Assembly: GCF_000819565.1 (NCBI RefSeq)
Contig: NZ_CP004393.1
Coordinates: forward strand, 2,976,001 to 3,040,000
Direction: 5' to 3'
From: Celeribacter indicus
GTDB taxonomy: Bacteria > Pseudomonadota > Alphaproteobacteria > Rhodobacterales > Rhodobacteraceae
DNA: 64,000 nt
This document shows, piece after piece, positions 19,973-47,954 of this stretch; within the stretch, counting starts at the first letter, position 1, and each line of letters starts with the position of its first letter. Position numbers and translations under genes: made by a program. The notes under the pieces were generated by a model. That model was given only the letters and a program-made list of their open reading frames with translations. It made no database searches and was not told the origin of the DNA.

Positions 19973-19984
19973 TTAGATTGCTAA
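19973..19984 (-). promoter_or_regulatory. Shared 12-bp regulon palindrome, reductase operon
   Basis: TTAGATTGCTAA, one arm base away from the inferred consensus TTAGATNTCTAA, 61 bp ahead of the reductase start codon. It lies in an A/T-rich patch within otherwise GC-rich DNA. Confidence 0.65.
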
Positions 19985-20056
19985 GTTTATGATGTCAATG
20001 GCCCCCTGCCCCTGCACCGGCCGCGCCGGGCCCGTGAGATCGGGAGCCGCATGCGA

Positions 20057-21220
20057 TCACGTCGGCGGCGGATCCGTCCGCAGGGCAAGGTGGTCCCGGC
20101 CGAGATGCCGCGGCGCGTCGCAGCCGGTGAGGATCATCGTGCGCTGCATCTCGTCGGCGAGAATCGCCAGCGCCCGCGCGACGCCCTCCCGCCCTCCGGC
20201 GGCAAGGCCGTAAAGCGGCGCCCGGCCGAGAAGCACGCCCTGCGCGCCCAGGGCCAGCGCCTTGACGATGTCGCTCCCGCGCCGGATGCCCCCGTCGAGC
20301 AGCACGGTTGCACCCTCGTCCAGCGCGGCCACGATCTCCGGCAGCACGGACAGGCTCGCCGGCGCACCGTCGAGCTGTCGCCCGCCGTGGTTCGACACGA
20401 CAATGCCGTCCGCCCCTTCGGCCCGCGCCCGGATCGCATCCTCGGCGCACATCACGCCCTTGATCAGCAGCGGACCGGGCCACAGCCCCCGGATACGGCG
20501 CACGTCCTCCCAGGAGAAGTGCGGATTCCTCTGGGAGCGCGTGAATTCGGCGAGGTCGCGGTCGCTGGCCGCGTCGCCCAGGAACGGGATCAGGTTCTCG
20601 AACCGCGGCCGGTGCCGGCCGAACCAGACGGAGGCGAGCCATCGCGGGTGCATCAGCCCGTCGAGCACCACCGGGGCGCTCATTCGGATTTCATGGGAGA
20701 ATCCATGCCGCAGATCCCGCTCGCGCTTCCCGCCGACGAGCGAATCCAGCGTGAGGATGAGGGCGGAATAGCCCGCTGCGGCGGCGCGTTCGACGAGCGC
20801 CTCGGAAAATTCCGGTCCGCCCCAGGGATAGAGTTGGAACCAGCGCGGCGCGTCGATGCGCCGGGCGATGGTTTCCATCGAGGCGTTGGACCCGGTCGAG
20901 AGGGCAAAGCCGATCCCCGCCTCGGCCGCGGCGCCCGCGAGGTGCAGATCGCCCTCCGGCCAATAGATGCCGCTCAGCCCGGTGGGCCCGATCAGGAAGG
21001 GGGCGGAATAGCTCTGCCCGAAGATCTCGGTCGACAGATCGACCCGCCCGCCACCAAGCAGTCGCGGCCGGAGCGTGAGATCGTCAAAGGCGCGACGGTT
21101 CGCCCGAAGCGTCAACTCATCCTCGGCGCCCCCGTCGAGATAGTCGAACACGACACGGGGCAGACGGCGCCGCGCCAGCCGGCGCAGATCGTCGATATTG
21201 ACGGCATTCTTCATCTTCAT
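20057..21220 (-). CDS. FMN-dependent alpha-hydroxyacid dehydrogenase (lactate/mandelate type)
   Basis: A 387-residue FMN-binding TIM barrel that oxidises an L-2-hydroxy acid to the 2-oxo acid. Visible family parts are SAPFLIGPTGLSG, WFQLYPWG, the catalytic-Lys strand LIKGVM, the active-site His with substrate-binding Arg in SNHGGRQLD, and the phosphate loop in LDGGIRRGSDI and ALGAQGVLLGR. The family includes lactate, glycolate and mandelate enzymes, and the sequence alone does not choose. It lies between the dioxygenase and reductase genes, so an aromatic hydroxy acid is possible. The ATG at 21220 or 21214 may be the start. Confidence 0.9.
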   Translation of the reverse strand: MKMKNAVNIDDLRRLARRRLPRVVFDYLDGGAEDELTLRANRRAFDDLTLRPRLLGGGRVDLSTEIFGQSYSAPFLIGPTGLSGIYWPEGDLHLAGAAAEAGIGFALSTGSNASMETIARRIDAPRWFQLYPWGGPEFSEALVERAAAAGYSALILTLDSLVGGKRERDLRHGFSHEIRMSAPVVLDGLMHPRWLASVWFGRHRPRFENLIPFLGDAASDRDLAEFTRSQRNPHFSWEDVRRIRGLWPGPLLIKGVMCAEDAIRARAEGADGIVVSNHGGRQLDGAPASLSVLPEIVAALDEGATVLLDGGIRRGSDIVKALALGAQGVLLGRAPLYGLAAGGREGVARALAILADEMQRTMILTGCDAPRHLGRDHLALRTDPPPT

Positions 21221-21260
21221 ATGACGGACGCTGCATCTCCGCCCCGCCTCGTCAAAAGAC

Positions 21261-21294
21261 GATCCGCCCGGATCGAAGCGACGCCGGGCGGATC
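21261..21294 (-). terminator. Terminator-like hairpin after the dioxygenase gene
   Basis: Perfect 11-bp arms GATCCGCCCGG and CCGGGCGGATC with a 12-nt loop. On the minus strand the stem is soon followed by TTTT. It lies between the oxygenase stop and the hydroxyacid dehydrogenase start, so expression of the latter may be reduced or separate. Confidence 0.65.
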
Positions 21295-21316
21295 GGGGAA
21301 GAGATGGAGACGGTCG

Positions 21317-22597
21317 TTACTCCGCCGCCTCGGTGGTGCCGGAGCCGTTCACCAGCGTGCGCCAGTCGACGTCCTTGGGATAGACACCTTCATGCGACGC
21401 GATCTGCGCCTGCGGAATGTCGGAAGCGGTCCCGATGGCCTGGCCCCCTTCGGCGACCTTCTTGGCCGCATCCGCCATCAAGCGGCGGAATTCGACGATG
21501 GCAAGGTCAGAGGCCCCGAGCGTATCCGTGTGACGCTGCACACGGCTGCCCATCGACACCCACATCACGATATCCTCGTTCGGGATACCGTCGACGCCGG
21601 TGAAATGGCCTTCCTTCATGCGCTGGCGGTCCTGCTTGAAGTCGTTTTCCAGCGTGCGCAGCGTGCGCCACTTGTGGTCCACGTCCACGCCCGGCACCGC
21701 ATGGGCGAACTTGCGCCATTCCTCGGTCGAAGGCACGTTCGGGCCGCCGAAGGCGATGAAGTGGAACGCCGTCTCGTCGTCGTTGATCGGAACGATGACG
21801 CTGGCCACCTTGTAGTTGTTGTTCGGCGGGATCAGCGAGTAATAGGGCGCGATGAACTCGGTGATGCGCAGGTAGTTATGCGTGGCCGAATTCTTGATCG
21901 GCTTGCGGATCGCCGCATAGTGGAAACCGTAGCTGGTGGTCTCGGTCTGCATCCGCGGCGACTTGTCGGTCGAGGGACGATACCAGGACTTGTCGTCGGC
22001 CGAAGCCCCCTCGACCCGCGCCGGCACCATGTGCGACGAGTGCAGCGAGGACGAGTGCGCGCTGTCGATCTGGCCCTCGTGGATCTGCGCCCAGTTGGCC
22101 GGGATGCGGATCTTCAGGATCGCGACCGGCGTATCCTCGGTCGGCGCGAAGGCCGGCGGCTGGAATTCCGGCATCTCGTCCTTTTCGCCGAGCCAGGCCC
22201 AGACGAACCCACCCCATTCGCGGGTCGGATAGGCGCGCGCCTTCACCTTGTCCATCAGCGGGCTGCCTTCCGGCTCGGAGGACATCGCGACGACATTGCC
22301 TTCGACGTCCATCTTCCAGCCGTGGTAGAGGCAGCGGAGCCCACATTCCTCGTTCCGGCCGTAGACGAGCGACGCCTTGCGGTGCGGGCAGAGTTCGTCG
22401 AGCATGCCGAGCTTGCCCTCGGTGTCGCGGAACGCGACATAGCTGTTGCCGAGCACTTCGACCCGCAGGGGCTTCCCGTCGGGTTCGGCGACCTCCTCGA
22501 TCAGACACACGGGTGTCCAATGCTGGCGCATCAGTTTTGCCATCGGCGCATCACCCGTCACGCGGGTCAGCAGTTCATTTTCTTCAGGCGTAAGCAT
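21317..22597 (-). CDS. Rieske aromatic dioxygenase, phthalate 4,5-dioxygenase-like oxygenase subunit
   Basis: A 426-residue ring-hydroxylating oxygenase of the single-subunit phthalate dioxygenase class. It has the Rieske ligands Cys70-x-His72 (CPHR) and Cys89-x2-His92 (CLYHGW). The mononuclear iron site is in IDSAHSSSLHSSH, and the C-terminal half is family-like. The ATG at 22597 has GGAGGAG 6 bp ahead; an upstream TTG would include that site in the coding frame. With the PDR reductase and Pht4/Pht5-like genes it forms a route from a phthalate-type diacid to protocatechuate. Isophthalate or pyridine dicarboxylates cannot be excluded. Confidence 0.92.
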   Translation of the reverse strand: MLTPEENELLTRVTGDAPMAKLMRQHWTPVCLIEEVAEPDGKPLRVEVLGNSYVAFRDTEGKLGMLDELCPHRKASLVYGRNEECGLRCLYHGWKMDVEGNVVAMSSEPEGSPLMDKVKARAYPTREWGGFVWAWLGEKDEMPEFQPPAFAPTEDTPVAILKIRIPANWAQIHEGQIDSAHSSSLHSSHMVPARVEGASADDKSWYRPSTDKSPRMQTETTSYGFHYAAIRKPIKNSATHNYLRITEFIAPYYSLIPPNNNYKVASVIVPINDDETAFHFIAFGGPNVPSTEEWRKFAHAVPGVDVDHKWRTLRTLENDFKQDRQRMKEGHFTGVDGIPNEDIVMWVSMGSRVQRHTDTLGASDLAIVEFRRLMADAAKKVAEGGQAIGTASDIPQAQIASHEGVYPKDVDWRTLVNGSGTTEAAE

Positions 22598-22684
22598 TAT
22601 GGCCTCCTCCAGCAAACAACGTAGCCGGCAGCGCGCCGGCGTCCAATACGGCCGGCAGGTCTTTGCCAGCGGCTCGCAATATTC

Positions 22685-22696
22685 TTAGCTATCTAA
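22685..22696 (-). promoter_or_regulatory. Shared 12-bp regulon palindrome, dioxygenase promoter
   Basis: TTAGATAGCTAA on the minus strand, one arm base from TTAGATNTCTAA, 88 bp before the oxygenase start codon. It is followed by the A/T-rich stretch expected of a promoter. Confidence 0.65.
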
Positions 22697-22911
22697 TAAC
22701 TTTTTGTCAACATCCCCTGCGACATTTTGGTTTCTCCCGGACAAAGCCAAGGCTTGCACGCCCTCCCCGTCGCGGCGTCAGACCCGAATCGCCTCGCCGC
22801 CGCACCGGCCGTTCCCACCGCCCTCCCCGGCCCCTCCCGAGGGGGCCGCGCGGCGAGGAAACATTCCGGGACGACAATACCAGATTGACTCGCCCGCTCA
22901 TGTCATGAAAC

Positions 22912-22923
22912 ATAGATCTCTAA
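22912..22923 (+). promoter_or_regulatory. Shared 12-bp regulon palindrome, TAXI permease promoter
   Basis: ATAGATCTCTAA, one base from TTAGATNTCTAA. It lies 108 bp before the start of the leader ORF that overlaps the permease gene, and 216 bp from the divergent dioxygenase copy. Confidence 0.6.
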
Positions 22924-23030
22924 GAACACGGGCCGCCGGGGAGGCGGTCGAAACGCATGGTGATCACGCGGCAAGTCAGGAAAGGGGCGCGCACACGCCC
23001 CTAGCCGCGTGGAAAAAAGGGAGGATTTGT

Positions 23031-23183
23031 ATGTACCTATACACCATAGACTCTGATTCTGCGCGTGCGGTCCGTTCCGCCGCAGGATCCCGCCGGCTGG
23101 CCGCGCGCGCACAGAATCGGCATGAGCCATCGAAGAGCGCCACACCGGGTGCACACACCCTTCGGACGTCGGGGCAGGCATGA
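23031..23183 (+). CDS. Small leader ORF coupled to the TAXI permease
   Basis: A 50-codon ORF beginning MYLYTIDSDSARAV, with a strong GGGAGG ribosome binding site 6 bp upstream. Its stop overlaps the permease start as ATGA. The permease lacks a good ribosome binding site of its own, so translation of this ORF may load ribosomes onto it. The product is basic, has no membrane segment and resembles nothing I know. It could be a real small protein, a regulatory leader, or a decayed gene. Confidence 0.5.
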   Translation: MYLYTIDSDSARAVRSAAGSRRLAARAQNRHEPSKSATPGAHTLRTSGQA

Positions 23184-25090: not shown

Positions 25091-25212
25091 GCGTCTCGCG
25101 CGACATGGAAACCGAGAAGTGGCCGCCTTCCGGGGCGGCCACTTGCCACGTTCAGAGGGGTGCATGATCCGCGCCCCTTCAGCAAAGACACGAGAAACAG
25201 GATGTTCCGCGG

Positions 25213-25779
25213 ATGACGAACTGTTCGAACGACCTCGCCCGCCCCGCCCCGCCGCCCGCCGCGGCCGCGCCACGGGGCTTTACCCTCTCCGCCTCCGCCA
25301 CGGCGGAACGCGCGGCGGGACTGGCCGCGGACATGAGCGAGGCACTCGCCGCGCTCCGGCGCAACCCGCTCGTCGACAGCATCGAATTCCGCGAAAAAAG
25401 ATCCGAGACCGGGCACAGGTTCCAGATCACCGTCCACGCGCGCGCGCATCCCGAGACGGATGAAAACCCGCTCGGGGAGCTGATCCGGGAGTTGCAGGAC
25501 GCGCCGGACGTCGATGTCGTGACCGAGACGAGCTGCCTGTCGGCGCTCAAGAACAAGCTGCCGCACACACCGCTGCCGCCCTTCTGGAAACGCTGGCTCG
25601 TGAGCATGATCGCGGTCTATCCCGCGCTGATCGTGATCTTCTACATGCTCCGGCCGGTGGCGGCGAACCTGCCGACGCCGCTGTCGCTGTTTCTGGTCGC
25701 GTTCTTCCTGACCGGGCTGAATGCGCGCTATATCCTGCCCTTCCTCAACCGGCGCCTGCCGCGCTGGCTTTTCACCTAG
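25213..25779 (+). CDS. Membrane-anchored protein with an antibiotic-biosynthesis-monooxygenase-like fold
   Basis: A 188-residue protein. The N-terminal two thirds look like a ferredoxin-like ABM/dimeric barrel domain (FREKRSETGHRFQITVHA region). The C-terminus has two membrane helices in the pattern seen with this family: LVSMIAVYPALIVIFYML, then FLVAFFLTGL followed by NARYILPFLNRRLPRWL. The start at 25213 follows the permease gene by about 120 bp on the same strand, so it may be co-transcribed. The function of the membrane-bound ABM group is not established. Confidence 0.7.
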   Translation: MTNCSNDLARPAPPPAAAAPRGFTLSASATAERAAGLAADMSEALAALRRNPLVDSIEFREKRSETGHRFQITVHARAHPETDENPLGELIRELQDAPDVDVVTETSCLSALKNKLPHTPLPPFWKRWLVSMIAVYPALIVIFYMLRPVAANLPTPLSLFLVAFFLTGLNARYILPFLNRRLPRWLFT

Positions 25780-25796
25780 AATCTTCACATTAAAAA

Positions 25797-25822
25797 GGCG
25801 GGCCGCCGCACAGCGCCCCGCC
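25797..25822 (-). terminator. Terminator of the 11-kb minus-strand operon
   Basis: Arms GGCGGG and CCCGCC enclose a 14-nt loop. On the minus strand the stem is followed by five T. It lies about 95 bp past the stop of the D-2-hydroxyacid dehydrogenase gene. Confidence 0.7.
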
Positions 25823-25881
25823 CCTCGCGCGTCCGGATCGCGCGGGTGTCCCGGTCCCTCCTGACGAGAGAGGGGAATGAT

Positions 25882-25917: not shown

Positions 25918-26958
25918 TCAGGCCGTCAGGCCGTCGAGCCGCTTGCGCCAGTCGCCTTCGACCTCGGGGTTGCGCGGATAGAGCGGCAGTTCGCCGCGCA
26001 TGATCCGCGTCGCGTTCTCCACCAGCACATCGGGCATGACGGTATAGAGGTCCACCGTATGCCCGAGGATATGCGGCGTGAGGATCACCCGCTCGAGCGA
26101 CCTGAGCGGATGGTCGTCCGGCAGAGGTTCGGTCTCCGTCACGTCGAGACCGGCGCCGCCGAGATGGCCCTCGCCCATCACCCGCACCAGCGCATCCTCG
26201 TCGATCAGCCCGCCGCGCGAGGTGTTGATGAGGATCGCGTCGGGCTTCATCGCGCGCAGTTCCGCCTCGCCGATCATGCCGCGGGTCTCGGCATTGAGCG
26301 GGACATGCAGGCTGATCACGTCGGCCTGCCCCAGCACCTCCTCGCGCGACACGAGCCGCACGCCCTCGGGCGCGGTCTCCGGCGTGAGGAAGGGATCGTG
26401 GATCAAGATTTCCGACGGATCGAAGGCCCGCAGGCGTTCGACCACACCGCCGCCGATCCGGCCGGAGCCGATCAGGCCGATGGTCCGCCCGCGCAGCATG
26501 CGGGCGTACATCTGCTGCGGCCGGCCCGCGTTCTCGCGCAGGAGACGCTCGGATTCATGCAGCCGGTAGAGCAGCACGAGCATCAGCATCACCGTCGCCT
26601 CAGACATGGCGAGGAAGTTCTCCGGCGTCGCGCCGTTCGCGACCATCAGCCCGCGCGCGGTGCAGGCCTTGAGATCGACCGCATCGACCCCGATCGTAGG
26701 GAAGACCAGCGCGCGCAGCCGCGGCGAGGCGTCGAGATCCTCCTCGCTCAGCCGCGAGCGTGAGCTGGCCACGATGATGTCGACATCCCCGAGCAGCGAC
26801 TGGCGCTGCTCGGGGGTGAGGCGCAGGGGCACGCCGGGCGTGATCGCAGGACCACGCACGACATCCCATCCCTGCCCGTCCAGCGTGGCGGAGGCGCGGT
26901 CGAGCACCTCCTCCAGCACCGGATCCTGAGCGATGTAGATCTTCGGAGCCATCGTCAT
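25918..26958 (-). CDS. D-isomer-specific 2-hydroxyacid dehydrogenase
   Basis: A 346-residue NAD(P)-dependent dehydrogenase. The Rossmann motif is GLIGSGRIGGG. The catalytic triad is visible as Arg in NTSRGGLIDE, Glu in VTETEPLP and His in LTPHILGHT. It interconverts 2-oxo acids and D-2-hydroxy acids. The start overlaps the stop of the TPP-enzyme gene as ATGA, so it is the last gene of the long operon. Together with the TPP enzyme this points to 2-oxo or 2-hydroxy acid chemistry. Confidence 0.92.
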   Translation of the reverse strand: MTMAPKIYIAQDPVLEEVLDRASATLDGQGWDVVRGPAITPGVPLRLTPEQRQSLLGDVDIIVASSRSRLSEEDLDASPRLRALVFPTIGVDAVDLKACTARGLMVANGATPENFLAMSEATVMLMLVLLYRLHESERLLRENAGRPQQMYARMLRGRTIGLIGSGRIGGGVVERLRAFDPSEILIHDPFLTPETAPEGVRLVSREEVLGQADVISLHVPLNAETRGMIGEAELRAMKPDAILINTSRGGLIDEDALVRVMGEGHLGGAGLDVTETEPLPDDHPLRSLERVILTPHILGHTVDLYTVMPDVLVENATRIMRGELPLYPRNPEVEGDWRKRLDGLTA

Positions 26959-28727
26959 TCGCTCCGCGTCAGGCCGGCGACCATGTTCGGGTTGTAGCCC
27001 GGCTGGACGCGGGCGTCGATCACCACGCTCTTGCCCTCCTTGACCAGTTCCAGACCCTTCTTCACCGCCTCGACAAGCTCGCCCGCGGTCGAGACCGGGC
27101 CGATTCCCTCGCAGCCCTGGGCACGCGCCACGGCCGCGATGTCGATGTCCGGATCGCCGATCCGCTGGCCGATCCACTTGTTCTCGACCGGACGGTTGCG
27201 GGCGACCGCGACGCGCTCCTGGTGCACCTCGTCGTTGTAGAAGGAGCGGTTGTTCGACACCACCGCAAGGAAGGGCGTGCCGTAATGCGCCGCGGTCCAG
27301 AAGGCCGAGGCGGCCATCATGAAGTCGCCGTCGCCAAGCACCGCCACCGGCACGCGCCCGCTGTCCTTCAGCGCCAGAGCCGCGCCGATCAGCATGCCCG
27401 GACCGGAGCCGATGCCCGCGCCGCCGTCGGAGCCGAGGAAGTCGAGCGGGTGGCGGAAGTGCCAGGCCTCGCCCGCCCAGCCGAGCGGCAGGCGCACCAT
27501 GCTGGCGCAGACGCCGTCGAGCCCTTCGCCGAGCGCGCCCGCGAGCGTCATGATGTCGAGCGGCGTCTCCGCAGAGGGGGCCGACAGCGCGGGCTTGACC
27601 GGCTGGTCCGCCGGCTCGGTCCCCGCCCCGACACCGAGCGCATCCGCGATCGCGTGGGTCGCGCGGTCGGGCGCGCAGGCGAGGTGCAGATCGGTCGCCG
27701 GCATTGCCTGATGCTCCATGCCCCAGCCGTTGTGGAGCTGGTGGTCGAGCGAGACCTGGATGACCTTCGCCTCGACCTTGCCCGCGAGCTTCAGCGTGCC
27801 GGCGAGGTCGAGCCAGTCGAGGCTGAGGATCACATCCGCCCCGCGCAGCACCTCACCCGCCGCATCGTCGATGAAGAAGGCGGGCTTGCCGCGATGCTGC
27901 GCATGGTCGGTCGGGAAGGAGGCACCGATGCGGATGTCGGTCAACACCTCGGCGCCGAGCGCCTCGACCAGCGCCACGCGCCGCGCCCAGTCGGCGGGAT
28001 CGCGCGAGACGCGGCCCGCGAGCACCACGGGTTTCTTCGCGTTTTTCAGCAGCTCGGTGGCCCGCGCCACGCCCTCGGCGGAAGGCGCGGCCGGCAGCGG
28101 CGGCTGGTAGCGCGCATAATCCGGCAGGGCCGGCACGGACTGGTGCTGCTTCTCCTGGATCGACACGTCGAAATTCACATAGGTCGGGCCGGTCGGCTCC
28201 GTGCGCGCGATCATGCTGGCGCGCACCATGGAGTCGATTGCCGCCTCCATCGAGCCGGGCTGGTCGTCCCATTTCACGTAGTTGCGGATCATCGCCGCCT
28301 GGTCGCGGCAGGTGTGCAGCCAGTCGATCCACGGCCGCCGCAGCGCCGCATCCACCGGACCCGTCGCGCCGTAGATCAGCACCGGCACCCGGTCGCACCA
28401 GGCATTGAAGATCGCCATCGTCCCGTGCATCAGCCCCACGTTGCTGTGCAGGATCACCGCCAGCGGCTCCCCCGTCACCTTCGCATAGCCATGCGCGATC
28501 GCCACCGCGTGCTCCTCGTGCAGGCACAGGAGCATCTGCGGATCGTGGTTGCCCAGGTGGTTCACCAGGCTGTCATGCAGCCCCCTGAAGCTCGATCCCG
28601 GATTGAGCGCCACATATTTCACGCCAAGGCCGCGCAGAACCTCCGCAAAGATATCGCTCCCCCAGACCCCGTTGCCCTCCGACGGGACAGGCGTTTCAAC
28701 GCGCGTTGGTTTCTGTTCGCTCATCAT
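26955..28727 (-). CDS. TPP-dependent enzyme, benzoylformate-decarboxylase-like
   Basis: A 590-residue enzyme of the acetolactate synthase/benzoylformate decarboxylase superfamily. By eye it aligns with benzoylformate decarboxylase at NPGS (residues 42-45), the cofactor-activating Glu71 in LHEEHAVAIAHGYA, and His94 in the VILHS segment, matching the family's active-site His. The TPP/Mg motif is LGDGDFMMAASAF ending in NN. Decarboxylation or carboligation of a 2-oxo acid is expected; the exact substrate is inference. It follows the isomerase-like gene and overlaps the dehydrogenase gene. Confidence 0.88.
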   Translation of the reverse strand: MMSEQKPTRVETPVPSEGNGVWGSDIFAEVLRGLGVKYVALNPGSSFRGLHDSLVNHLGNHDPQMLLCLHEEHAVAIAHGYAKVTGEPLAVILHSNVGLMHGTMAIFNAWCDRVPVLIYGATGPVDAALRRPWIDWLHTCRDQAAMIRNYVKWDDQPGSMEAAIDSMVRASMIARTEPTGPTYVNFDVSIQEKQHQSVPALPDYARYQPPLPAAPSAEGVARATELLKNAKKPVVLAGRVSRDPADWARRVALVEALGAEVLTDIRIGASFPTDHAQHRGKPAFFIDDAAGEVLRGADVILSLDWLDLAGTLKLAGKVEAKVIQVSLDHQLHNGWGMEHQAMPATDLHLACAPDRATHAIADALGVGAGTEPADQPVKPALSAPSAETPLDIMTLAGALGEGLDGVCASMVRLPLGWAGEAWHFRHPLDFLGSDGGAGIGSGPGMLIGAALALKDSGRVPVAVLGDGDFMMAASAFWTAAHYGTPFLAVVSNNRSFYNDEVHQERVAVARNRPVENKWIGQRIGDPDIDIAAVARAQGCEGIGPVSTAGELVEAVKKGLELVKEGKSVVIDARVQPGYNPNMVAGLTRSE

Positions 28728-37171: not shown

Positions 37172-38023
37172 TCAGAAATCCAGCCCGAAATCGACCGTGC
37201 CGGCCGAATGGGTGAGCGCCCCGGAGGAAATATAGTCGACGTTGGTGGCGGCGATCTCCTTCAGGCGGTCGAGACGGACATTGCCGCTCGCCTCGGTCTT
37301 CATGCGGCCGTCGATGCGCCGCACCGCGGTCGCCATGTCCTCGGTCGTCATGTTGTCGAACAGCACGGCATGCGCGCCGCCGACCTCGAGCACCTCGTCG
37401 AGCTGCCCGAGCCCGTCGATCTCGATCTCGACCACCACCATGTGCCCCGCATTGCGCTTCACCGCTTCCAGCACCGGACGGACGCCGCCCGCGGAGGCGA
37501 TGTGGTTGTCCTTGATCAGGATCGCATCGGAGAGGGAAAAGCGGTGGTTGAAGCCGCCGCCGTGGAGAATCGCGAGCTTCTCGACGATCTTCATCCCCGG
37601 CGTCGTCTTGCGCGTGCAGGTGATCCGCGTTTCGGTGCCTTCGAGCTCGCGGGCATAGCGCGCCGTCAGCGTCGCCGTCCCCGACAGACGCCCCGCGAAA
37701 TTGAGCGCGACGCGCTCGGCCGCGAGGATCGAGGCGGCGGCCCCCTCGATCGTCATCAGCGTGTCCCCCGCCTTGCAGGCGGTCCCGTCCGCGACGCGGA
37801 TCTCGACCGCGAGCGTGGGGTCGATCAGCCGGAAGGCCAGCGCGGCCACCTGCATGCCGGAGACGACGGCGTCCTGCCGCGCGTTCAGCTCCGCACGATA
37901 CCGCGTGCCCGCGGGAATGACGGCCCGCGTGGTGACGTCACCCGCGGCGCCGAGGTCTTCCATGATCGCGTTGCGGACCAGCGGCTCGAGGATGATGTCC
38001 GGGACATTGGCAAAACTGTTCAC
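37172..38023 (-). CDS. nadC: Nicotinate-nucleotide pyrophosphorylase (quinolinate phosphoribosyltransferase)
   Basis: A 283-residue QPRTase that joins quinolinate to PRPP with decarboxylation, in NAD synthesis. Family motifs are EDLGAAGDVTT, LNFAGRLSGTAT, TCTRKTTPGMK, LHGGGFNHR and IKDNHI. The start is GTG with GAAGGAG 7 bp ahead. No nadA or nadB gene is nearby. It follows the aldehyde dehydrogenase gene on the same strand by 252 bp, so its role may be in the catabolic region rather than in routine NAD synthesis (inference). Confidence 0.9.
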   Translation of the reverse strand: MNSFANVPDIILEPLVRNAIMEDLGAAGDVTTRAVIPAGTRYRAELNARQDAVVSGMQVAALAFRLIDPTLAVEIRVADGTACKAGDTLMTIEGAAASILAAERVALNFAGRLSGTATLTARYARELEGTETRITCTRKTTPGMKIVEKLAILHGGGFNHRFSLSDAILIKDNHIASAGGVRPVLEAVKRNAGHMVVVEIEIDGLGQLDEVLEVGGAHAVLFDNMTTEDMATAVRRIDGRMKTEASGNVRLDRLKEIAATNVDYISSGALTHSAGTVDFGLDF

Positions 38024-38275
38024 GTAAGTGCTCCTTCTTTGATGTCGCGCCCCCTCCGGCCGGTCTGCCGGCACCTGGAGGAGAGGATATGTCATGGCCT
38101 GCATCGGCGGGCGGCGCCGGGGTCCGAAGCGCGAACAGGGCCCGCGCGGGGATGCCCCGCGCAGACCCTCATGCGTCTCCATCCGTCAGGATGCGATCCC
38201 GCCCCTGCCCGCGCCTCGGCCGGACTGGCCATGCCGGGGCAGCGTCACAGGACCGCGGACCTCCGCGCCCCGCAC

Positions 38276-39757
38276 TTACTGGCCGGAAAGATTGATATGG
38301 ACGTTTTTCTCGTGGGTAAAGGCAATCAGCTCGCCGATCCCCTCCTCACGGCCGATCCCCGATTGCTTGACCCCGCCGAAGGGCGCGCCGAGGAAATGGC
38401 GGCCGACCTCGTTGACCCAGACAAAGCCCGCCTCGACCCGTGCCGCGGCGCGGTGCGCAGTGACCAGATCGCGTGTCCAGATGGCACAGGTCAGGCCGAG
38501 TTCCAGCCCGTTGACCTCGCGCAGCATCTCGGTCTCGTCGCTCCATTTGCGGACCGCCAGGACCGGGCCGAAGATCTCCTCGCGCGCGATGCGCATCTCG
38601 GGGGTCACGTCGGCGAAGATGGTCGGCTCGATGAAGCAGCCCTTGCCCAGCGGCCCGTCGGTGACGGCATTGCCGCCGGTGACGGCGCGCGCGCCCTCGC
38701 TCTTGGCCGACTCGATATAGCCCATCACCCGGTTGAACTGGTCCCGGCTGACGATGGCGCCCATCGTGGTCTCGGGGTCGGTCGGGATCCCCGGCTTGTA
38801 GCGCGCGATCTTGTCGGAGAGGTAGGACAGCACCTCGTCATGGATATCCTCATGCAGGAAGGCCCGGCTCGTCGAACCGCAGGACTGGCCGCACCAGCCG
38901 AAATTCATGCCGGCGACAAGGGCGTCGGCGATCTTTTCGGGCTTGCTGTCGGGATAGGCGATCAGCGCGTTCTTGCCGCCGAGCTCCAGCAGCACCGGCT
39001 TCACCGTCGAACTGGCGCTGCGCATCACCGCGCGGCCCGCGCCAACCGACCCGATCAGCGTCACCTTGGCGACGCCCGGATGTTCGGCCAGCGCCGCGCC
39101 CGCCTCGGTCCCGCCGGGCAGCACGCTGAACGTGCCCTTCGGCAGCAGCCCGTCGACGATCTCCGCGAGGCGCAGCGCCGAGAGCGGCGCCTGCACCGGC
39201 GGCTTGATGATCACGGCGTTGCCGGCCGCGAGCGGGGCGGCCATCTTGCCGCCGCAGAACATGAACGGGTGGTTGAACGCCAGGATGCGCGCCACGACGC
39301 CGAGCGGCTGGCGCAGCGTCATGTTCACCCGGTCGGGCCCCATCGGGATCGTGTCGCCCTTCATCTCGGTCACGAGACCGGCAAAGAGGTCCATCTGCGC
39401 CGCCGCAATGGCCGCGTCACCGCGCATTTCCGTATAGGGGTTGCCGCAGTTGGCCGCGTCGATCAGCGCCAGCTCGTCGCCATGCTTGCGCAGGAGGGCG
39501 GCGATCTCCTTCAGGATGCGGCCGCGCTCCAGCGGCGGCACGTCGCGCCATTCGAGAAAGCCGGCCTGCGCCGCCGCGACCGCCGCGTCCACGTCGGCCG
39601 TGCCCGCGGTGGCGACGGCGCGGATGACCTGTCCCGTCGCCGGGTTCAGCGTGTCGTCGTAGGAGCCGCTTGCCGGCTTGTGCCATTCCCCGCCGAAATA
39701 CAGATCGACATGCTGCGGCAGCGACTGATCGACGTCAATTTTCAGAGCGTGCGTCAA
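38276..39757 (-). CDS. NAD(P)-dependent aldehyde dehydrogenase
   Basis: A 493-residue ALDH-superfamily enzyme. The catalytic Cys lies in GMNFGWCGQSC, the general-base Glu in LLELGGKNAL, and the cofactor motif in VTLIGSVGAGRAV. The C-terminal EEIFGPVLAVRKW block is typical. The start is TTG with GGAGGATC 8-9 bp ahead. The regulon palindrome lies 37 bp upstream. A benzaldehyde-type substrate would fit the nearby benzoylformate-decarboxylase-like gene, but the family is broad. Confidence 0.92.
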   Translation of the reverse strand: MTHALKIDVDQSLPQHVDLYFGGEWHKPASGSYDDTLNPATGQVIRAVATAGTADVDAAVAAAQAGFLEWRDVPPLERGRILKEIAALLRKHGDELALIDAANCGNPYTEMRGDAAIAAAQMDLFAGLVTEMKGDTIPMGPDRVNMTLRQPLGVVARILAFNHPFMFCGGKMAAPLAAGNAVIIKPPVQAPLSALRLAEIVDGLLPKGTFSVLPGGTEAGAALAEHPGVAKVTLIGSVGAGRAVMRSASSTVKPVLLELGGKNALIAYPDSKPEKIADALVAGMNFGWCGQSCGSTSRAFLHEDIHDEVLSYLSDKIARYKPGIPTDPETTMGAIVSRDQFNRVMGYIESAKSEGARAVTGGNAVTDGPLGKGCFIEPTIFADVTPEMRIAREEIFGPVLAVRKWSDETEMLREVNGLELGLTCAIWTRDLVTAHRAAARVEAGFVWVNEVGRHFLGAPFGGVKQSGIGREEGIGELIAFTHEKNVHINLSGQ

Positions 39758-39793: not shown

Positions 39794-39805
39794 TTAGATT
39801 TCTAA
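39794..39805 (-). promoter_or_regulatory. Shared 12-bp regulon palindrome, aldehyde dehydrogenase promoter
   Basis: TTAGATTTCTAA is the perfect form of the motif (arms TTAGA and TCTAA around TT), 37 bp before the TTG start codon. Confidence 0.7.
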
Positions 39806-40068: not shown

Positions 40069-40890
40069 ATGACCACTCAGCAAGCGAAGGAAACGGATGT
40101 GGAAGAAAAAGGTGGCGCCCGTCAGCACATTCAATCTGTCGTCGTGGGAGCCAGGCTGCTGGAGGCGCTGGTCCGCCGCAACGACTCGATGTCGCTCACC
40201 GCGATTTCCAAGGCGGCGGACATGGCTCCGGCCAAGGCGCACCGCTATCTCGCGAGCTTCATCGAGACCGGTCTGATCACGCAGAGCAAGACGACGGGAT
40301 ATTACGATCTCGGCCCGCTGTCGCTGGATCTCGGCCTCGCCGCGATCCGGCGCCTCGATGTGGTCGAACTGGCCTATCCGTTCATGGTCTCGCTGCGCGA
40401 GGAGACGGGCGAGACCGTGTCCCTCTCGGTGCTCGGGAATTTCGGGCCGACGCTCGTGCGCTGGGTGCCGAACAACGCGCCGGTGAACATCACCGTCAAT
40501 GTCGGCTCCGTCCTGCCGCTGCTCACCTCCTCGAACGGGCGCGCCTTCGCCGCCTTCCTGCCGCCCGAGAAGGCCGACCCGCTGATCGAGAAGGAACTGG
40601 CCGAAGGCTCCGCCGCGCTCGAGGCCGCAAACATCCGCTCGCGGGCCGATGTCGACCGCGTGCTGAACTCCGTGCGCGAGAGCGGCGTCGCGGAAGCGGT
40701 GGGGCTGGTGCTTCCGGCCATCGCGTCGCTGAGCTGCCCGATCTTCGACCGGACCAACACCGTCGTGGCCGTGCTCACGGTGCTCGGGATCACCGGGATG
40801 ATCTCCACGGAAAGGGACAGCCCGATATCGCAGACCCTCCGCAGGACCGCCGCGCGCATCTCCGAGATGCTCGGCGCGCGGATGGGCTGA
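40069..40890 (+). CDS. IclR-family transcriptional regulator
   Basis: A 273-residue regulator. An N-terminal winged helix (about residues 20-80, MSLTAISKAADMAPAKAHRYLASFIETGLI) is followed by the IclR effector domain (AYPFMVSLREETGETVSLSVL onwards). IclR proteins often respond to aromatic acids. It is divergent from the aldehyde dehydrogenase gene and is one of two plausible regulators of the catabolic region; the 12-bp palindrome nearby looks more like a MarR-type site. Confidence 0.92.
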   Translation: MTTQQAKETDVEEKGGARQHIQSVVVGARLLEALVRRNDSMSLTAISKAADMAPAKAHRYLASFIETGLITQSKTTGYYDLGPLSLDLGLAAIRRLDVVELAYPFMVSLREETGETVSLSVLGNFGPTLVRWVPNNAPVNITVNVGSVLPLLTSSNGRAFAAFLPPEKADPLIEKELAEGSAALEAANIRSRADVDRVLNSVRESGVAEAVGLVLPAIASLSCPIFDRTNTVVAVLTVLGITGMISTERDSPISQTLRRTAARISEMLGARMG

Positions 40891-43155: not shown

Positions 43156-43191
43156 GTTCTCTCCTCCCTAATGATGTGCAGAGGCCGGGGT

Positions 43192-43599: not shown

Positions 43600-43633
43600 G
43601 GTCTCCTCCTGTCTTGCTGTTCCACGAAAGATG

Positions 43634-44380
43634 TCAGACGACGCCGCCATCGACGCCGATGGCCTTGCCGGTCAGGTAGCTGGCCTCGTCGGAGGCCAGG
43701 AACACGTAGGTCGGTGCGATCTCCGGCGGCGTGGCCTGCCGCCCGAGGGGAACGGTGGCGCGGATCATCGCGTCATGCGCCTCGGTGCCGCCCATCTGCC
43801 GGATCACCGGACCGTTGAACGGCGTGTCCACCCAGCCCGGACAGACGGCGTTGACGCGAATGCCCCGCGGCCCGAGTTCTGCCGCCGCGGCGGTGGTGAA
43901 CAGGATCTGCCCGCCCTTGCTCGCGCAGTAGCCCGACACGCCGGGCGCGCCGCGCAGGCCGGCCGCCGATGAGGTATTGATGACCGACGCACCCGCCGAC
44001 AGGTGCGGCAGTGCCTCGCGCAGGACCAGGAAGGGCCCGCGCATGTTGACGCTCATCTGTAGATCCCAGTCCTCGACCGAGGCCTCTTCGATGCTGCTCG
44101 CGCGCTGCACACCGGCATTGTTCACGACGATATCGAGCCCGCCGAGCACCTCGAGCGCCGCGGCGATCCCCTGTTTCACAGAGGCCTCGTCGGAGACATC
44201 CATCTGAAGTCCTGTGCAACGCGCGCCGATCTTTCCTGCGGCTTCACTGGCGAGATCTCCATTCAGGTCGAGGATCACCACCTGCGCGCCCTCCCGGACG
44301 AAGGCGTCGGCCACGGCAAAGCCGATCCCCTGCGCGGCGCCTGTGACAATCGCTTTTTTTCCAGACAAACGGTCCGTCAT
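43634..44380 (-). CDS. Short-chain dehydrogenase/reductase
   Basis: A 248-residue classical SDR. The cofactor motif is TGAAQGIG (13-20), with NNAGVQ and the catalytic Ser, Tyr-x3-Lys in TSSAAGLRG and SGYCASKGG. The Asp after the second strand (VILDLNGD) favours NAD. It is first in an operon with the HbpS-like and PQQ alcohol dehydrogenase genes and is divergent from the MarR gene at 44714. It may oxidise or reduce an aromatic alcohol or diol (inference). Confidence 0.92.
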   Translation of the reverse strand: MTDRLSGKKAIVTGAAQGIGFAVADAFVREGAQVVILDLNGDLASEAAGKIGARCTGLQMDVSDEASVKQGIAAALEVLGGLDIVVNNAGVQRASSIEEASVEDWDLQMSVNMRGPFLVLREALPHLSAGASVINTSSAAGLRGAPGVSGYCASKGGQILFTTAAAAELGPRGIRVNAVCPGWVDTPFNGPVIRQMGGTEAHDAMIRATVPLGRQATPPEIAPTYVFLASDEASYLTGKAIGVDGGVV

Positions 44381-44713
44381 TATGCGTTTTCTCCTCCTGA
44401 TCCGCGGCGGGATGACAGGAAGGCTCCCTCCGTCGCCCGTCTCCCAGCATGGTTCCGCACCGGATCATTTCTTTTTCCGTAATTGATTTACTTATTATAA
44501 AATACGATCCGCGCTTGTCACTGATTTTTTCCATTTCGCCTCATATTGCAGGATGCGAATGAACCCGGCGTCCTGCCGCTCCCCCTTCCCGCGACCGCGG
44601 GTCGCACCGCGAGCCCGCCCGAGGGGCGAAACCCCGCCGAAGTTTTGGTTGCCAAGCGGTGTTCCGGCCTGCATGCTCTTGGCAACATCGGGTTTTATTG
44701 GTTTAGTCTCCGG
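44381..44713. other. Divergent control region of the SDR operon and marR
   Basis: Near the SDR side lies an A/T-rich patch (44479-44505) containing GTAATTGATTTAC and TTATTATAA palindromes, a likely promoter. Near the marR side lies the long inverted repeat listed separately. I see no gene in the middle. Confidence 0.5.
44648..44686 (+). promoter_or_regulatory. Inverted repeat upstream of marR
   Basis: Perfect 9-bp arms GTTGCCAAG (44648-44656) and CTTGGCAAC (44678-44686), 30 bp apart centre to centre, end 27 bp before the ATG. This could be an operator with two half-sites on one DNA face or an RNA hairpin in the leader. Confidence 0.5.
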
Positions 44714-45253
44714 ATGAACGAACAAACCAAATGCGTCAGCCCTGATCTCGGATCAGCGAGACCTGACGAACGCCTTGCGAGGCTCGTGCGCCTCGCCGCG
44801 CGGGGATTCAACCGCTCTCTCCAGATCCGGCTGAACACGCAGAACGTGACCTTCGGCCAGTGGATCTTCCTGCGGATCCTGTGGAAGGAGGACGGGCTGT
44901 CGCAGCGCGAGCTGAGCGAACGGGCGCATCTGACGGAGCCCACGGCCCATACCGCCCTGCTTCGGATGGAGGAACTTGGGTATATCGTCCGACGCAACGT
45001 CGAGGGCAACAAGCGCCGCCAGCATGCCTTCCTGACGCCAAGGGGCTGGGAGCTGCGCGACCTGCTCGAACCGCTGGCGATCGAGGCGAACGATCTGGCC
45101 GTCGCGGGCCTGAGCGAGGAAGAGCAGCGCACTCTGCGCAAGGCGCTTGCACTCATCATCCGCAACCTCGAACGCGACGAGGCCGAGGCGGCCCGCCGCG
45201 GCATCCGCGTCCCGCCGACCAAGGGCAAGAGCACCCCCGACCAGATCGGCTGA
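44714..45253 (+). CDS. MarR-family transcriptional regulator
   Basis: A 179-residue winged-helix regulator. The DNA-binding region is LSQRELSERAHLTEPTAHTALLRMEELGYI, with the wing around RRQHAFLTPRG; the C-terminus carries a basic, Pro-rich tail. I start at MNEQTKC because the open frame upstream is not protein-like. It lies inside the catabolic region, divergent from the SDR operon and next to the TAXI receptor gene. It is the best local candidate for binding the 12-bp TTAGATNTCTAA palindrome (inference from family and position). Confidence 0.9.
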   Translation: MNEQTKCVSPDLGSARPDERLARLVRLAARGFNRSLQIRLNTQNVTFGQWIFLRILWKEDGLSQRELSERAHLTEPTAHTALLRMEELGYIVRRNVEGNKRRQHAFLTPRGWELRDLLEPLAIEANDLAVAGLSEEEQRTLRKALALIIRNLERDEAEAARRGIRVPPTKGKSTPDQIG

Positions 45254-45375
45254 CAGGGCATCGCCCTCCGGCCTGCGCCACCCGTCGCCCCGCGCCATGG
45301 GTGCAACGGCTGTGCCTGCACGCCCCGCCAGGTGTCGCGCGAGACCCGCGGCCATGATCAGGCGGCCATGAAAAA

Positions 45376-45403
45376 GCCGGCGCACCGTTTCCGATGCGCC
45401 GGC
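45376..45403. terminator. Bidirectional terminator between marR and the TAXI receptor gene
   Basis: Perfect 9-bp arms GCCGGCGCA and TGCGCCGGC with a 10-nt loop. T-rich sequence follows on both strands (TTCTTATTTT rightward, TTTTT leftward), so it can end both convergent transcripts. Confidence 0.85.
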
Positions 45404-45428
45404 TTCTTATTTTCGGGAATTCAGGATC

Positions 45429-46418
45429 TTATTCCAGCAGCCCGAGCTCGGTATAGGCCCGCTGCGCGCCCGGATGGAAGGGCAGCGTGGTCTGCGAGAC
45501 CAGAAGCTCGGGAGTGAGTTCCTTCATCGAGCTGTGCACGGAGCGAACCTCGTCCATGTTCTCGACGATGTCCTTCGCGATGGTGTAGCCGGATTCCTCG
45601 TCCAGCGCGTCCGAGGTGATCAGCAGCGCACCGAGGGCAAGCGTCTGGACCGCCTCCGGCTGGTTGCTGTAGCTCCCCGCCGGGATCTCGAACGGCGTCG
45701 TGCCGAATCTCTCGTTCGTCTGGTCGATCACGTCCTGCGGGACCTGAAGAACCACGACCTCGGTGTTCCGGTCGACGCTGAGGAAGGACGAATGGCCGAC
45801 GAAGATGCCGTTGGTGACCATGTCGATCCGGCCGTCGGCCATCAGGTCGGCCTGCTGCGCCGAACCGCCGCGCACCATGGTGCCGCCATTCGCCCTGATC
45901 GTCTCCTCGTCGAACCCGGCCGCGTCGAGCATGAAGCTCGTGATATTGGCCGTCACGTTCCCGGCGTTGTTGTTGCCGACCCGGATGGACGCGCCCGAGG
46001 AGGCAAGGTCGTCAAGGCTGTCGATGCCGTATTCGTCGGCGATCGACTTGCGCAGGAAAAAGTGCATCGGCGCCCAGTTGTACATGTAGCCGATGGCCTG
46101 GAGATTTTCGACCGGCCCCCGGAACGGCTCTGCGCCCTCGAGCGCCAGCTTGATCTCCGCGTCATGCGCGAGCCCCAGATCGGTGCGGTTCGCCTGAAGC
46201 AGGGCGATATTGGCAAAGCCGCCGCCCGTGGCCTGGTAGGTGACGACCCCCCTGGGGTCGGAGGCCTTCACGGCGCGGTCGACGCCGGCCCCCAGAAGGG
46301 ACCACAGACCCGACGGGTTGCCCCCCGAAAGCGTCACGTTGACGCTTTGCGCCGTGACACCGCTGCCGAGCACGGACATGCCGAGCGCAGCAAAAAACAT
46401 GGTAAGTTTGCGTTTCAT
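45429..46418 (-). CDS. TAXI-family TRAP transporter substrate receptor
   Basis: A 329-residue periplasmic receptor with a signal peptide ending near residue 23 (SGVTAQ). The TAXI pattern is visible in LSGGNPSGLWSLLGAGV, VTYQATGGGFANIALLQANRTD and SGASIRVGNNNAGN. No permease is adjacent; the fused TAXI permease at 23180-25090 shares its upstream palindrome and is the likely partner. ATG start with GAGGGAGGAAG upstream. Confidence 0.9.
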   Translation of the reverse strand: MKRKLTMFFAALGMSVLGSGVTAQSVNVTLSGGNPSGLWSLLGAGVDRAVKASDPRGVVTYQATGGGFANIALLQANRTDLGLAHDAEIKLALEGAEPFRGPVENLQAIGYMYNWAPMHFFLRKSIADEYGIDSLDDLASSGASIRVGNNNAGNVTANITSFMLDAAGFDEETIRANGGTMVRGGSAQQADLMADGRIDMVTNGIFVGHSSFLSVDRNTEVVVLQVPQDVIDQTNERFGTTPFEIPAGSYSNQPEAVQTLALGALLITSDALDEESGYTIAKDIVENMDEVRSVHSSMKELTPELLVSQTTLPFHPGAQRAYTELGLLE

Positions 46419-46473
46419 TATCTTCCTCCCTCTTTAGGTAGCTGCATAGAGGCACTGTGCCAGGTGCCTAATA

Positions 46474-46485
46474 TTAGATATCTAT
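46474..46485 (-). promoter_or_regulatory. Shared 12-bp regulon palindrome, TAXI receptor promoter
   Basis: TTAGATATCTAT, one base from the consensus, 56 bp before the receptor start. It overlaps a second palindrome CTAATATTAG. An adjacent GGCACTGTGCC palindrome lies closer to the gene. Confidence 0.65.
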
Positions 46486-46623
46486 GTTGCTTTTTCTTTT
46501 CTAGCCGCGCTCACCCGGCCAGTCAACGACCAAGTCGCGCCCTCCTCTCCGGCCCACGGCCGCCGCCCGGCCGCCGCTTTGCGGCCGGAACACGGCCCGC
46601 GCCGGGGCGCGGCCTCGATGCGA

Positions 46624-47448
46624 TCAATGCGACATGAAGACCGGAACCTTGGCGGTGCGGAGCACCTGATGGGTGACGCCGCCGAACATGTCCTGGGAAA
46701 ACTTGCTGTGCTCGTAGGCACCCATGACGATCAGCTTCGCACCGATCTCGTCGGCGGTCGTCTGAACGACATCCGCGATGCTGCCGCCGGCCTTGGTGCG
46801 GTGGATATGTTCCGCCTTGACCCCGTGCCGCTCCAGATGCCGCGTGATCCAGGTCGCGTCGGGAAGTTCGTGCAGCACGTTGCCGACGGTGACAATGGAC
46901 ACCTTCCGCGGCTTCTCCTCGAGCACCGTCATCGCATCGTTGATCGCCCGCGCCGCCGAGCGTTTGCCGTCCCAGGCGACGAGCGCGTGGCTGGCCAGCG
47001 TCTCGGCCTCGTAGCCATCGGGCACCACCAGCACCGGACGGCCGCTGCGCAGGGCGATGATGTCCGGGCTCACCGCGCGATATTCGTCGTTCCGCAGCTT
47101 CGGCTGATAGCCGGTTACGATGAAATCGAAATTCCGCGCAATCTCGGTCGGGGCGAACTTGCTGACGCTGTCGGGCGGAAGGAATTCGGACCGCTCCACA
47201 ATGCCGCCGGCGGCCGCCTCCTCTTCGAACTGCGCCCGAAGCTCCGCCACCCGGCTGCGCTCGACCTCCTTCAGCTTGGCGCGAAGATCTCCGCCCACCG
47301 CGAGGACCTGGTCGACATAGGACCACGTGCCGCCATAGAGGCCCGTCAGCCACGCGTCATGCCGCTTGGCGATCTTCACCGCATAACGCAGGCTGCTGAG
47401 AAACGCCGTGTTTCCCGTATGTGCCAACAAAACATTCTTGATGCTCAT
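46624..47448 (-). CDS. Universal stress protein family
   Basis: A 274-residue cytoplasmic USP with a tandem arrangement: N-terminal fold starting IKNVLLAHTGN and a second half starting ALVAWDGKRSAARAI. The C-terminal nucleotide-binding region reads VMGAYEHSKFSQDMFGG, where the usual G-S/T run is altered, so ATP binding is uncertain. Found under the same palindrome as the uptake and dioxygenase genes, which suggests a link to substrate stress (inference). Confidence 0.88.
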   Translation of the reverse strand: MSIKNVLLAHTGNTAFLSSLRYAVKIAKRHDAWLTGLYGGTWSYVDQVLAVGGDLRAKLKEVERSRVAELRAQFEEEAAAGGIVERSEFLPPDSVSKFAPTEIARNFDFIVTGYQPKLRNDEYRAVSPDIIALRSGRPVLVVPDGYEAETLASHALVAWDGKRSAARAINDAMTVLEEKPRKVSIVTVGNVLHELPDATWITRHLERHGVKAEHIHRTKAGGSIADVVQTTADEIGAKLIVMGAYEHSKFSQDMFGGVTHQVLRTAKVPVFMSH

Positions 47449-47954
47449 GGTTGCCTCATTTTGCGCCGATACCTGATCCTGCTTAGATGAAATATATTTA
47501 GATGTCTATGATTATGTTGCCGGTCCGCATCCGGCACGAGCAGGCGGAGCGGCGAAATCGGCGCCCCTTCTCCGCCGAGATCCCGCCACATCCCCCGGCC
47601 CGGCGCCGCCGATCGACGGGTCGGCGGCCGGTCACTCATCGGACGGGGTCAGATCAGGATTCCAGACGATGTCGCACACATGCCCGTCCGGGTCGCGCCC
47701 GCTCGAACGGGGGCCGGGCCAACCTTCCCGAGCCTGACCTGTTTCAGACAGCGAAAGGCTAGCCATGTGGATGCCGGGCGTCAACACCGACACCGATGCG
47801 GAGATCTCGCCGAAAAACTCCCTCGCGGGCAGGCCGCAGGCTCAGCGCTTGACCTGTGGTCTGCTTCCGGCTTCGAGGCCGCGGCAAGCCCATCCGAGCC
47901 CCCCCCGGACAGAGCTGCCTTCCGATGATGAGCCATGGCCGTTAGAAGAACATC
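47449..47954. other. Gap between the stress-protein and nucleotidyltransferase genes
   Basis: The left 60 bp hold the regulon palindrome and a TTAGATGA half-site. The rest contains only short overlapping frames without family features. I see no integrase remnant, repeat or RNA gene. Confidence 0.45.
47498..47509 (-). promoter_or_regulatory. Shared 12-bp regulon palindrome, universal stress protein promoter
   Basis: TTAGATGTCTAT, one base from the consensus, 50 bp before the start codon. A half-site TTAGATGA lies 15 bp further left. Confidence 0.65.

Follow-up and report, generated by a model that had tools for sequence, protein, structure and literature searches.

Which protein reads a 12-base palindrome that stands ahead of six separate catabolic, transport and stress units, and what do these units accomplish together? 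The question is raised by a 64,000-base stretch of Celeribacter indicus (contig NZ_CP004393.1, positions 2,976,001 to 3,040,000, forward strand), which we call the window; coordinates below refer to it unless a locus is named. A first-pass annotation of the window had proposed an apparent new regulon and had named the MarR-family gene at 44714-45253 as the best candidate for its regulator. We consider it probable, at roughly 78%, that this protein, here called MarR-B, has the palindrome (consensus CTTAGATATCTAAG) as its operator and is the MarR-family repressor of a phthalate catabolon.

The palindrome is concentrated in one region of the genome

All six palindromes were present at the coordinates given by the first-pass annotation and exactly as written there:

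19973..19984: candidate operator TTAGATTGCTAA, ahead of the reductase/dehydrogenase/decarboxylase operon (minus strand), from the position check and conservation
22685..22696, minus strand: candidate operator TTAGATAGCTAA, within a promoter-like TTGACA-18-AAGAAT (22710..22681, minus strand) of the dioxygenase gene
22912..22923, plus strand: candidate operator ATAGATCTCTAA, with 256 bases between it and the TAXI permease gene downstream
39794..39805: candidate operator TTAGATTTCTAA, between the aldehyde dehydrogenase gene (minus strand) and the IclR gene (plus strand)
46474..46485: candidate operator TTAGATATCTAT, upstream of the minus-strand gene for the TAXI receptor
47498..47509: candidate operator TTAGATGTCTAT, upstream of the minus-strand gene for the universal stress protein

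All six lie clear of called genes in a region that is only 11% intergenic, which agrees with the earlier description of the sites as intergenic. Measured on the open reading frame (ORF) lists, the distance from site to start codon is 60 bases for the reductase, 69 for the dioxygenase, 256 for the TAXI permease, 36 for the aldehyde dehydrogenase, 55 for the TAXI receptor and 49 for the universal stress protein. The range of mostly 37-110 bp that had been reported is about right for most of them, the permease site being farther away.

A pattern describing the sites (WTAGATNNCTAW) matched six distinct places in the window, with seven matches in all as one site matches on both strands; 100 dinucleotide shuffles gave an expectation of 0.01. 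Because this pattern was derived from the sites themselves, the whole genome provides a fairer test than the window. Across its 4,969,388 bases we obtained eight matches at seven distinct places, of which six, all of them intergenic, fall within the same 27.5 kb. The reversed control pattern gave three matches genome-wide. The probability of finding at least six of seven random sites in one 27.5-kb interval is about 2e-13, or about 4e-11 once the number of intervals is allowed for. The seventh place lies on contig C3 (135,821 bases) at G000:C3:125271 (L042:7271) and is taken up with the hydrolase gene below. When the consensus CTTAGATATCTAAG was scored on the plus strand of the window, the six sites were the six best places (11-12 of 14), and the next best (10 of 14) overlapped one of them. 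The sequence TTAGNNNNCTAA alone has four genomic places, of which three are in the window; its reversed control has 22 matches per strand.

Other genomes carry the motif upstream of the same genes

Conservation in relatives had been put forward as a check on the sites, and the motif does recur ahead of the same genes in other genomes. Two genomes of the same genus (G012 and G018) each have five sites; these precede the reductase operon and the dioxygenase, permease, receptor and aldehyde dehydrogenase genes, in a cluster with rearranged gene order. A genome from another family of the same class (G025) holds two, and one of these is flanked by dioxygenase and reductase. Taken singly, site 19973 has its counterpart at the same place in G012, G018 and Thioclava; site 22912 is kept in Thioclava (L044:10285); the counterpart of site 39794 stands ahead of the aldehyde dehydrogenase gene in G012, G018, L044 and L052; and that of site 47498 is kept in L052 and in Thioclava L044. 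Of the eight plasmid loci of MarR-B homologs that were compared first, seven had strict sites, with five in Thioclava and none in Massilia. Later plasmid loci had sites in Rhizobium (L133) and Neptuniibacter (L135) and none in Rhizobium (L134) and Polaromonas (L186).

For a larger comparison we used loci found via MarR-B in named genomes, taking the best 80 of 314 with flanks of at most 10 kb. Sites were present in 64 of these 80 loci, which together contain 134 sites versus 12 reversed-control matches. For 124 of the 134, a recognised cluster gene follows within 400 bp. Assignments, in which one site may count for up to two genes, fell to the reductase (52), dioxygenase (43), TAXI receptor (39), aldehyde dehydrogenase (8) and MarR-B (8), with four further genes receiving one each. 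After thinning to 38 representative loci with less than 80% MarR-B identity, 30 carried sites (63 in all) and the reversed control was found in two (two matches). A scan independent of the motif counted, in the 38 loci, all 4-base half-sites with gaps of 0-8 within the 250 bases that precede cluster genes of nine kinds. The combination TTAG-N4-CTAA ranked first of 1061 (50 occurrences versus 0.94 expected), and its one-base extension, CTTA-N6-TAAG, ranked second (20 versus 0.16).

MarR-B travels with the motif

44714..45253, plus strand: MarR-B, proposed regulator, 179 amino acids, Pfam MarR/MarR_2 (scan made with the longer ORF 44546-45253)

The winged-helix domain of MarR-B scores 37 bits against PF12802 (cut-off 27) and 34.1 bits against PF01047 (cut-off 24.6). 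Its structure model, with a predicted local distance difference test (pLDDT) score of 85.8, has the MarR fold, in which helical dimerisation ends flank a winged helix-turn-helix, and the five best Foldseek matches are chains of the MarR regulator 3s2w and of SlyA 1lj9 (template modelling score by target 0.80-0.88).

Since loci picked by MarR-B cannot alone assign the motif to MarR-B, we also picked loci by the dioxygenase. Searches covered 385 and 398 genomes, and 16 of the 17 orthologs with at least 53% identity were fetched, the 17th being G025, already included. Nine of the 16 clusters have strict sites, and all nine site-bearing genomes hold MarR-B at more than 120 bits. In six of them the gene lies within the fetched stretch; in the other three it is located elsewhere in the genome (226.5, 221.5 and 122.9 bits) and was found after the sites. 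Three genomes with phthalate (pht) genes and without sites have no MarR-B above 55 bits and no match to TTAGNNATCTAA anywhere in the genome, and in two of these three clusters Pfam recognised no regulator among 10 ORFs scanned. Around distant dioxygenase paralogs (34-42% identity), 20 of 52 of which were fetched, there was no site and no MarR-B above 37 bits within 10-20 kb. In the gammaproteobacterium Neptuniibacter five sites were seen first; a MarR-B homolog (44%) then turned up on that plasmid, a short way beyond the stretch. The eight assignments to the MarR-B gene itself come from six Burkholderiales loci, and most of the 64 site-bearing loci are stretches in which neither the IclR protein nor MarR-A, the second MarR of the window, was found. 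Among the local regulators, then, it is MarR-B that travels with the motif in the sequences compared, and this comparative evidence across loci supports its earlier choice as best candidate.

By homology, the units make up a phthalate catabolon

By homology, the gene set is that of a phthalate-to-protocatechuate pathway. The regulon proposed by the first-pass annotation is supported, and the pathway, unnamed there, is identified as phthalate catabolism. The members are as follows:

15388..16323, minus strand: EamA/DMT transporter, last in the reductase operon
16336..16800, minus strand: conserved 154-amino-acid protein of the reductase operon, without Pfam match
16797..18059, minus strand: 4,5-dihydroxyphthalate decarboxylase-like (pht5), NMT1-like; ortholog annotated pht5 in CP031591
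17803..18978, minus strand: GFO/IDH/MocA dehydrogenase, pht4-like; ortholog annotated pht4 in CP031591
18968..19912, minus strand: phthalate dioxygenase reductase-like (pht2/ophA1), Pfam Fer2 and NAD_binding_1; ortholog annotated ophA1 in CP031591
20057..21220, minus strand: alpha-hydroxy acid oxidase dependent on flavin mononucleotide (FMN), Pfam FMN_dh
21317..22615, minus strand: phthalate 4,5-dioxygenase oxygenase, pht3-like, Pfam Rieske and LigXa_C; ortholog annotated pht3 in CP031591
23180..25090, plus strand: TRAP transporter fused permease, TAXI type
25213..25779, plus strand: conserved 188-amino-acid protein after the permease, without Pfam match
26955..28727, minus strand: thiamine pyrophosphate (TPP) enzyme, benzoylformate decarboxylase-like; TPP enzyme of the CP031591 cluster annotated mdlC
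37172..38182, minus strand: NadC (quinolinate phosphoribosyltransferase), the sole PF01729 match in the genome, with no site of its own
38276..39757, minus strand: aldehyde dehydrogenase; one in the CP031591 cluster annotated phdK (2-formylbenzoate dehydrogenase)
45429..46418, minus strand: TAXI-family solute receptor, Pfam NMT1_3; PDB sequence matches include TAXI receptors
46624..47448, minus strand: universal stress protein

The oxygenase is a Rieske oxygenase of the phthalate dioxygenase type. Its top match among PDB sequences is 7fjl/7v25/7v28 (E 3.6e-176), of which we take 7fjl to be a phthalate dioxygenase, its PDB name being merely 'Rieske (2Fe-2S) domain protein'; 7fhr, a 'Putative Phthalate 4,5-dioxygenase', also matches (E 3e-59). 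Genes for the reductase, the dihydrodiol dehydrogenase and the 4,5-dihydroxyphthalate decarboxylase lie together, and their counterparts and that of the oxygenase on the Marinibacterium anthonyi plasmid CP031591 were named pht3, ophA1, pht4 and pht5 by the depositors. The decarboxylase is likewise annotated in Polaromonas; the true start of the pht5-like ORF is probably near 17789, annotated orthologs being 993 bp.

The TAXI receptor and the fused permease are the likely uptake system of the cluster, and TAXI-TRAP uptake of o-phthalate has been reported in other bacteria (excerpted text of PMC13040137). Genes for the alpha-hydroxy acid oxidase, the TPP enzyme and the aldehyde dehydrogenase recur in the clusters of relatives. 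These three enzymes look like a phthalonate/2-formylbenzoate side branch, and could convert 2-carboxymandelate via phthalonate and 2-formylbenzoate to phthalate. NadC was considered as a duplicated, phthalate-proof copy; duplication was rejected for this genome, as the gene inside the phthalate cluster is its only copy, and G012 and G018 each have a single NadC on a contig other than that of the pht cluster. Human QPRT is bound and inhibited by phthalate (excerpts of PMC4726147), and in strain DBO1 a NadC gene is said, with earlier work cited, to aid growth on phthalate (a passage of PMC6051330).

Several further features were noted around these genes. The proteins encoded at 16336-16800 and 25213-25779 are conserved, lack Pfam matches and accompany the phthalate genes. 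The segment 28759-36851, which separates the TPP gene from the NadC gene, holds an arylmalonate-decarboxylase-like gene, a DctPQM transporter and hydantoinase A/B, with no site ahead; this block is missing at that place in Thioclava and is partly present, with the TPP enzyme, in Labrenzia/Stappia (L055/L056). At the border of the cluster (47955-48879) are an aminoglycoside-adenylyltransferase-like gene and a transfer RNA gene (48806-48879, minus strand), the latter of which may mark the end of an island. Pelagimonas phthalicica is among the MarR-B loci, in name only a suggestive case.

Promoter context, mechanism and alternative explanations

A consensus promoter scan found that TTGACA-18-AAGAAT encloses site 22685 and that TTGACA-16-TATGTT encloses the seventh site. 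Since two sites lie inside predicted promoters, repression is suggested; a site within the promoter spacer fits a repressor, and repression is the usual mode of MarR proteins (excerpts of PMC3737563). In 109 non-redundant oriented site-gene pairs (less than 75% identity, thinned from 161), 39 TTGACA-like hexamers (at least 5 of 6 bases) lie 14, 13 or 11 bases before the site versus 14 on the opposite strand, a control that is blurred by divergent promoters.

We propose that a MarR-B dimer would occupy the site between or over the -35 and -10 elements (the spacer and the upstream edge of the -10). The promoters at which it would block RNA polymerase are those of the TAXI receptor, the permease, the phthalate 4,5-dioxygenase, the aldehyde dehydrogenase, the stress protein and the reductase-dehydrogenase-decarboxylase operon. 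Binding of phthalate or of a close metabolite, a ligand suggested by the gene content, would release MarR-B. Through the same operator on the other contig, this control would extend to a mobile phthalyl-amidase-like hydrolase.

Several observations weigh against this reading. The promoter scan found no promoter at the other five window sites (one of six passes), and the permease site, 256 bp upstream, is ill-suited to simple occlusion. Autoregulation is common in the MarR family, and there is no site ahead of MarR-B's own gene in the window; the eight assignments to that gene are those of the six Burkholderiales loci. Sixteen of the 80 MarR-B loci have no strict site, and none was found in the plasmid loci of Massilia (L051), Polaromonas (L186) and Rhizobium (L134), where the MarR-B homologs are 56%, 47% and 37% identical, respectively. 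The two Rhizobium loci have MarR homologs of 37-38%, one with a site between dioxygenase and reductase and the other without. Four of the 13 dioxygenase-picked genomes with MarR-B (L140, L145, L146 and L148) are without a strict site in the stretch. The three phthalate genomes that lack MarR-B represent one genus, to which L140 (G089) also belongs, and within the 16 clusters alone the association of motif and MarR-B is weak (Fisher P 0.06). Finally, no site was found beside PhtR, the MarR regulator of the Sphingobium yanoikuyae SHJ phthalate cluster, in the stretch fetched.

Two other regulators of the window were weighed as readers:

40069..40890, plus strand: IclR-family regulator, rival candidate
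14891..15349, plus strand: MarR-A, second MarR, unlikely reader of the motif

That the palindromes are a chance or repeat-element artefact has next to no likelihood. The motif and the promoters are both AT-rich, as such an artefact would have it, but the reversed-pattern controls, the whole-genome counts and the motif-independent palindrome scan all oppose it, and the earlier judgement that chance is improbable is upheld alike by the shuffles, genome count, interval probabilities and reversed controls. A different doubt concerns what MarR-B does once bound: it might read the sites and activate, or repress at a subset only, through looping at the TAXI permease, for example. Certain MarR proteins do activate, and the permease site is 256 bases before the start codon in the window and about 321 in C. 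baekdonensis. We nevertheless regard this as unlikely because the sites at the dioxygenase and hydrolase promoters overlap the -35/-10 spacer and TTGACA-like hexamers accumulate 11-14 bases ahead of the site.

It is less likely still that another protein reads the palindrome. The IclR protein, ranked second by the first-pass annotation, has site 39794 in the divergent promoter region that it shares with the aldehyde dehydrogenase gene, and it co-occurs in Thioclava, Phaeobacter P75 and Marinibacterium (there as a PcaR/PcaU/PobR-family gene). It does not track the motif, however. Of the 64 loci with sites, taken with flanks of up to 10 kb, it was seen in just 9, and the 16 dioxygenase-picked loci gave no instance. 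It was also not found in the fetched, site-holding stretches of G012, G018 and G025; within the stretches fetched, an IclR ortholog does not occur wherever the operator does. Its position next to (Phaeobacter P75) or near (Thioclava) 3-oxoacid CoA-transferase genes suggests a PcaR/PcaU-type role instead, and we give it very little chance of being the reader. MarR-A, or some other MarR of the genome, with MarR-B a mere passenger, is just as improbable. MarR-A lies within the cluster of G012 and G018, a MarR gene occupies a like place in Thioclava and Phaeobacter P75, and the genome has 43 MarR_2 matches, 28 of them above the cut-off. Against this, MarR-A is the best label of 0 ORFs in the 80 loci (flanks of at most 10 kb) and sits at one cluster end beside the EamA gene without a site there, and MarR-B is present wherever sites occur in the dioxygenase-picked set. 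Repression by MarR-B is the explanation that we prefer.

A seventh site accompanies a recently spread putative hydrolase gene

The seventh site precedes a 479-amino-acid ORF (L042:7352-8791) for which there was no Pfam match and no PDB sequence match. In 17 plasmid records, among which are several near-identical Phaeobacter plasmids, the protein is 99.6-100% identical. Depositors annotated it as o-phthalyl amidase in one of these, a plasmid of Marinibacterium on which pht genes are present as well. A segment of 2301 bases that includes the site is 99.9-100% identical across the same 17 records, which represent seven genera; in C. baekdonensis 2240 bases are identical, and the gene is absent from G018. 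MarR-B is also held by 11 of the 17 records. The homolog in Phaeobacter sp. G2 (76%) has no strict site; TTAGCCATCTAC, one base off, lies at the same place after TTGACA. Mu/Tni-type and insertion sequence (IS) transposases are neighbours of the hydrolase gene, and the near-identity of the segment points to a very recent spread. We tentatively suggest, at a little under even odds, that this is a mobile 2.3-kb segment encoding a phthalyl-amidase-like, probably secreted hydrolase, near-unchanged across at least eight mostly marine genera, which carries its own operator and recruits the resident phthalate repressor wherever it lands, possibly driven by man-made phthalates.

Implications

These results provide a concrete candidate operator and regulator for o-phthalate catabolism in Alpha- and Betaproteobacteria and on one gammaproteobacterial plasmid. 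If the assignment is true, it explains how uptake, ring attack and side branches encoded in separate units are switched jointly, and it supplies a part for sensors. The same candidate operator stands ahead of a putative hydrolase gene of recent spread. In the portions available of a 2026 review, sensors are described that are built on the terephthalate regulator TphR, as is the characterised isophthalate repressor IphR, and o-phthalate clusters are presented as a resource that has yet to be exploited (PMC13040137); for o-phthalate, a sensor has been made from an altered XylS (excerpts of PMC11683335). The MarR genes PhtR and OphR had already been named in phthalate papers. The literature searched, which reaches few subscription papers, contained no operator or regulon of a phthalate MarR.

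Comparison with known systems

The SlyA site TTAGCAAGCTAA, to which the first-pass annotation likened the palindrome, has the same length and the same outer TTAG...CTAA, and its inner bases differ from the consensus CTTAGATATCTAAG; the likeness holds for length and ends and is otherwise a loose analogy. A resemblance to the HucR operator was not confirmed in the literature found, and TTAGATATCTAA was not found in the top-listed papers of a text search on the MarR family or the motif. PcaV, HcaR and HosA, MarR regulators of known structure that act in aromatic-acid catabolism, share the fold of the modelled MarR-B (Foldseek E about 1e-7 to 4e-7) and differ from it in sequence, with 21-24% identity in those alignments; the structure match listing includes HosA solved with p-hydroxybenzoate. 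Regulators of this type have short palindromic operators in promoters.

Among phthalate systems, the thesis of Han (2008) reportedly names gene organization, regulation and detection in its title. Oph-R appears as 'MarR family' in a primer table that cites this thesis (excerpt of PMC5031561). Plasmid pSES189 of S. yanoikuyae SHJ encodes the MarR-family PhtR, for which regulation of phthalate degradation is stated in PMC6051330, the accessible sections of which give no operator. Like MarR-B, PhtR adjoins phthalate dioxygenase, dehydrogenase, decarboxylase and NadC genes; it is only 33% identical to MarR-B over 136 amino acids. At L185:8734-9545 the same plasmid carries a second MarR, 39% identical to MarR-B, which is directly followed by the motif and then a serine hydrolase gene, and another site stands ahead of an alpha/beta hydrolase gene. 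These may be ester hydrolases under a regulator related to MarR-B.

In the TAXI-TRAP o-phthalate transporters of denitrifiers (portions of PMC13040137), also proposed for Pseudomonas PTH10 (portions of PMC6362003), whose authors found no regulator gene in its cluster, a receptor and a fused permease stand beside phthalate genes, as they do here. Celeribacter differs from those systems in that its clusters are of the 4,5-dioxygenase type and its transporter genes bear the candidate operator.

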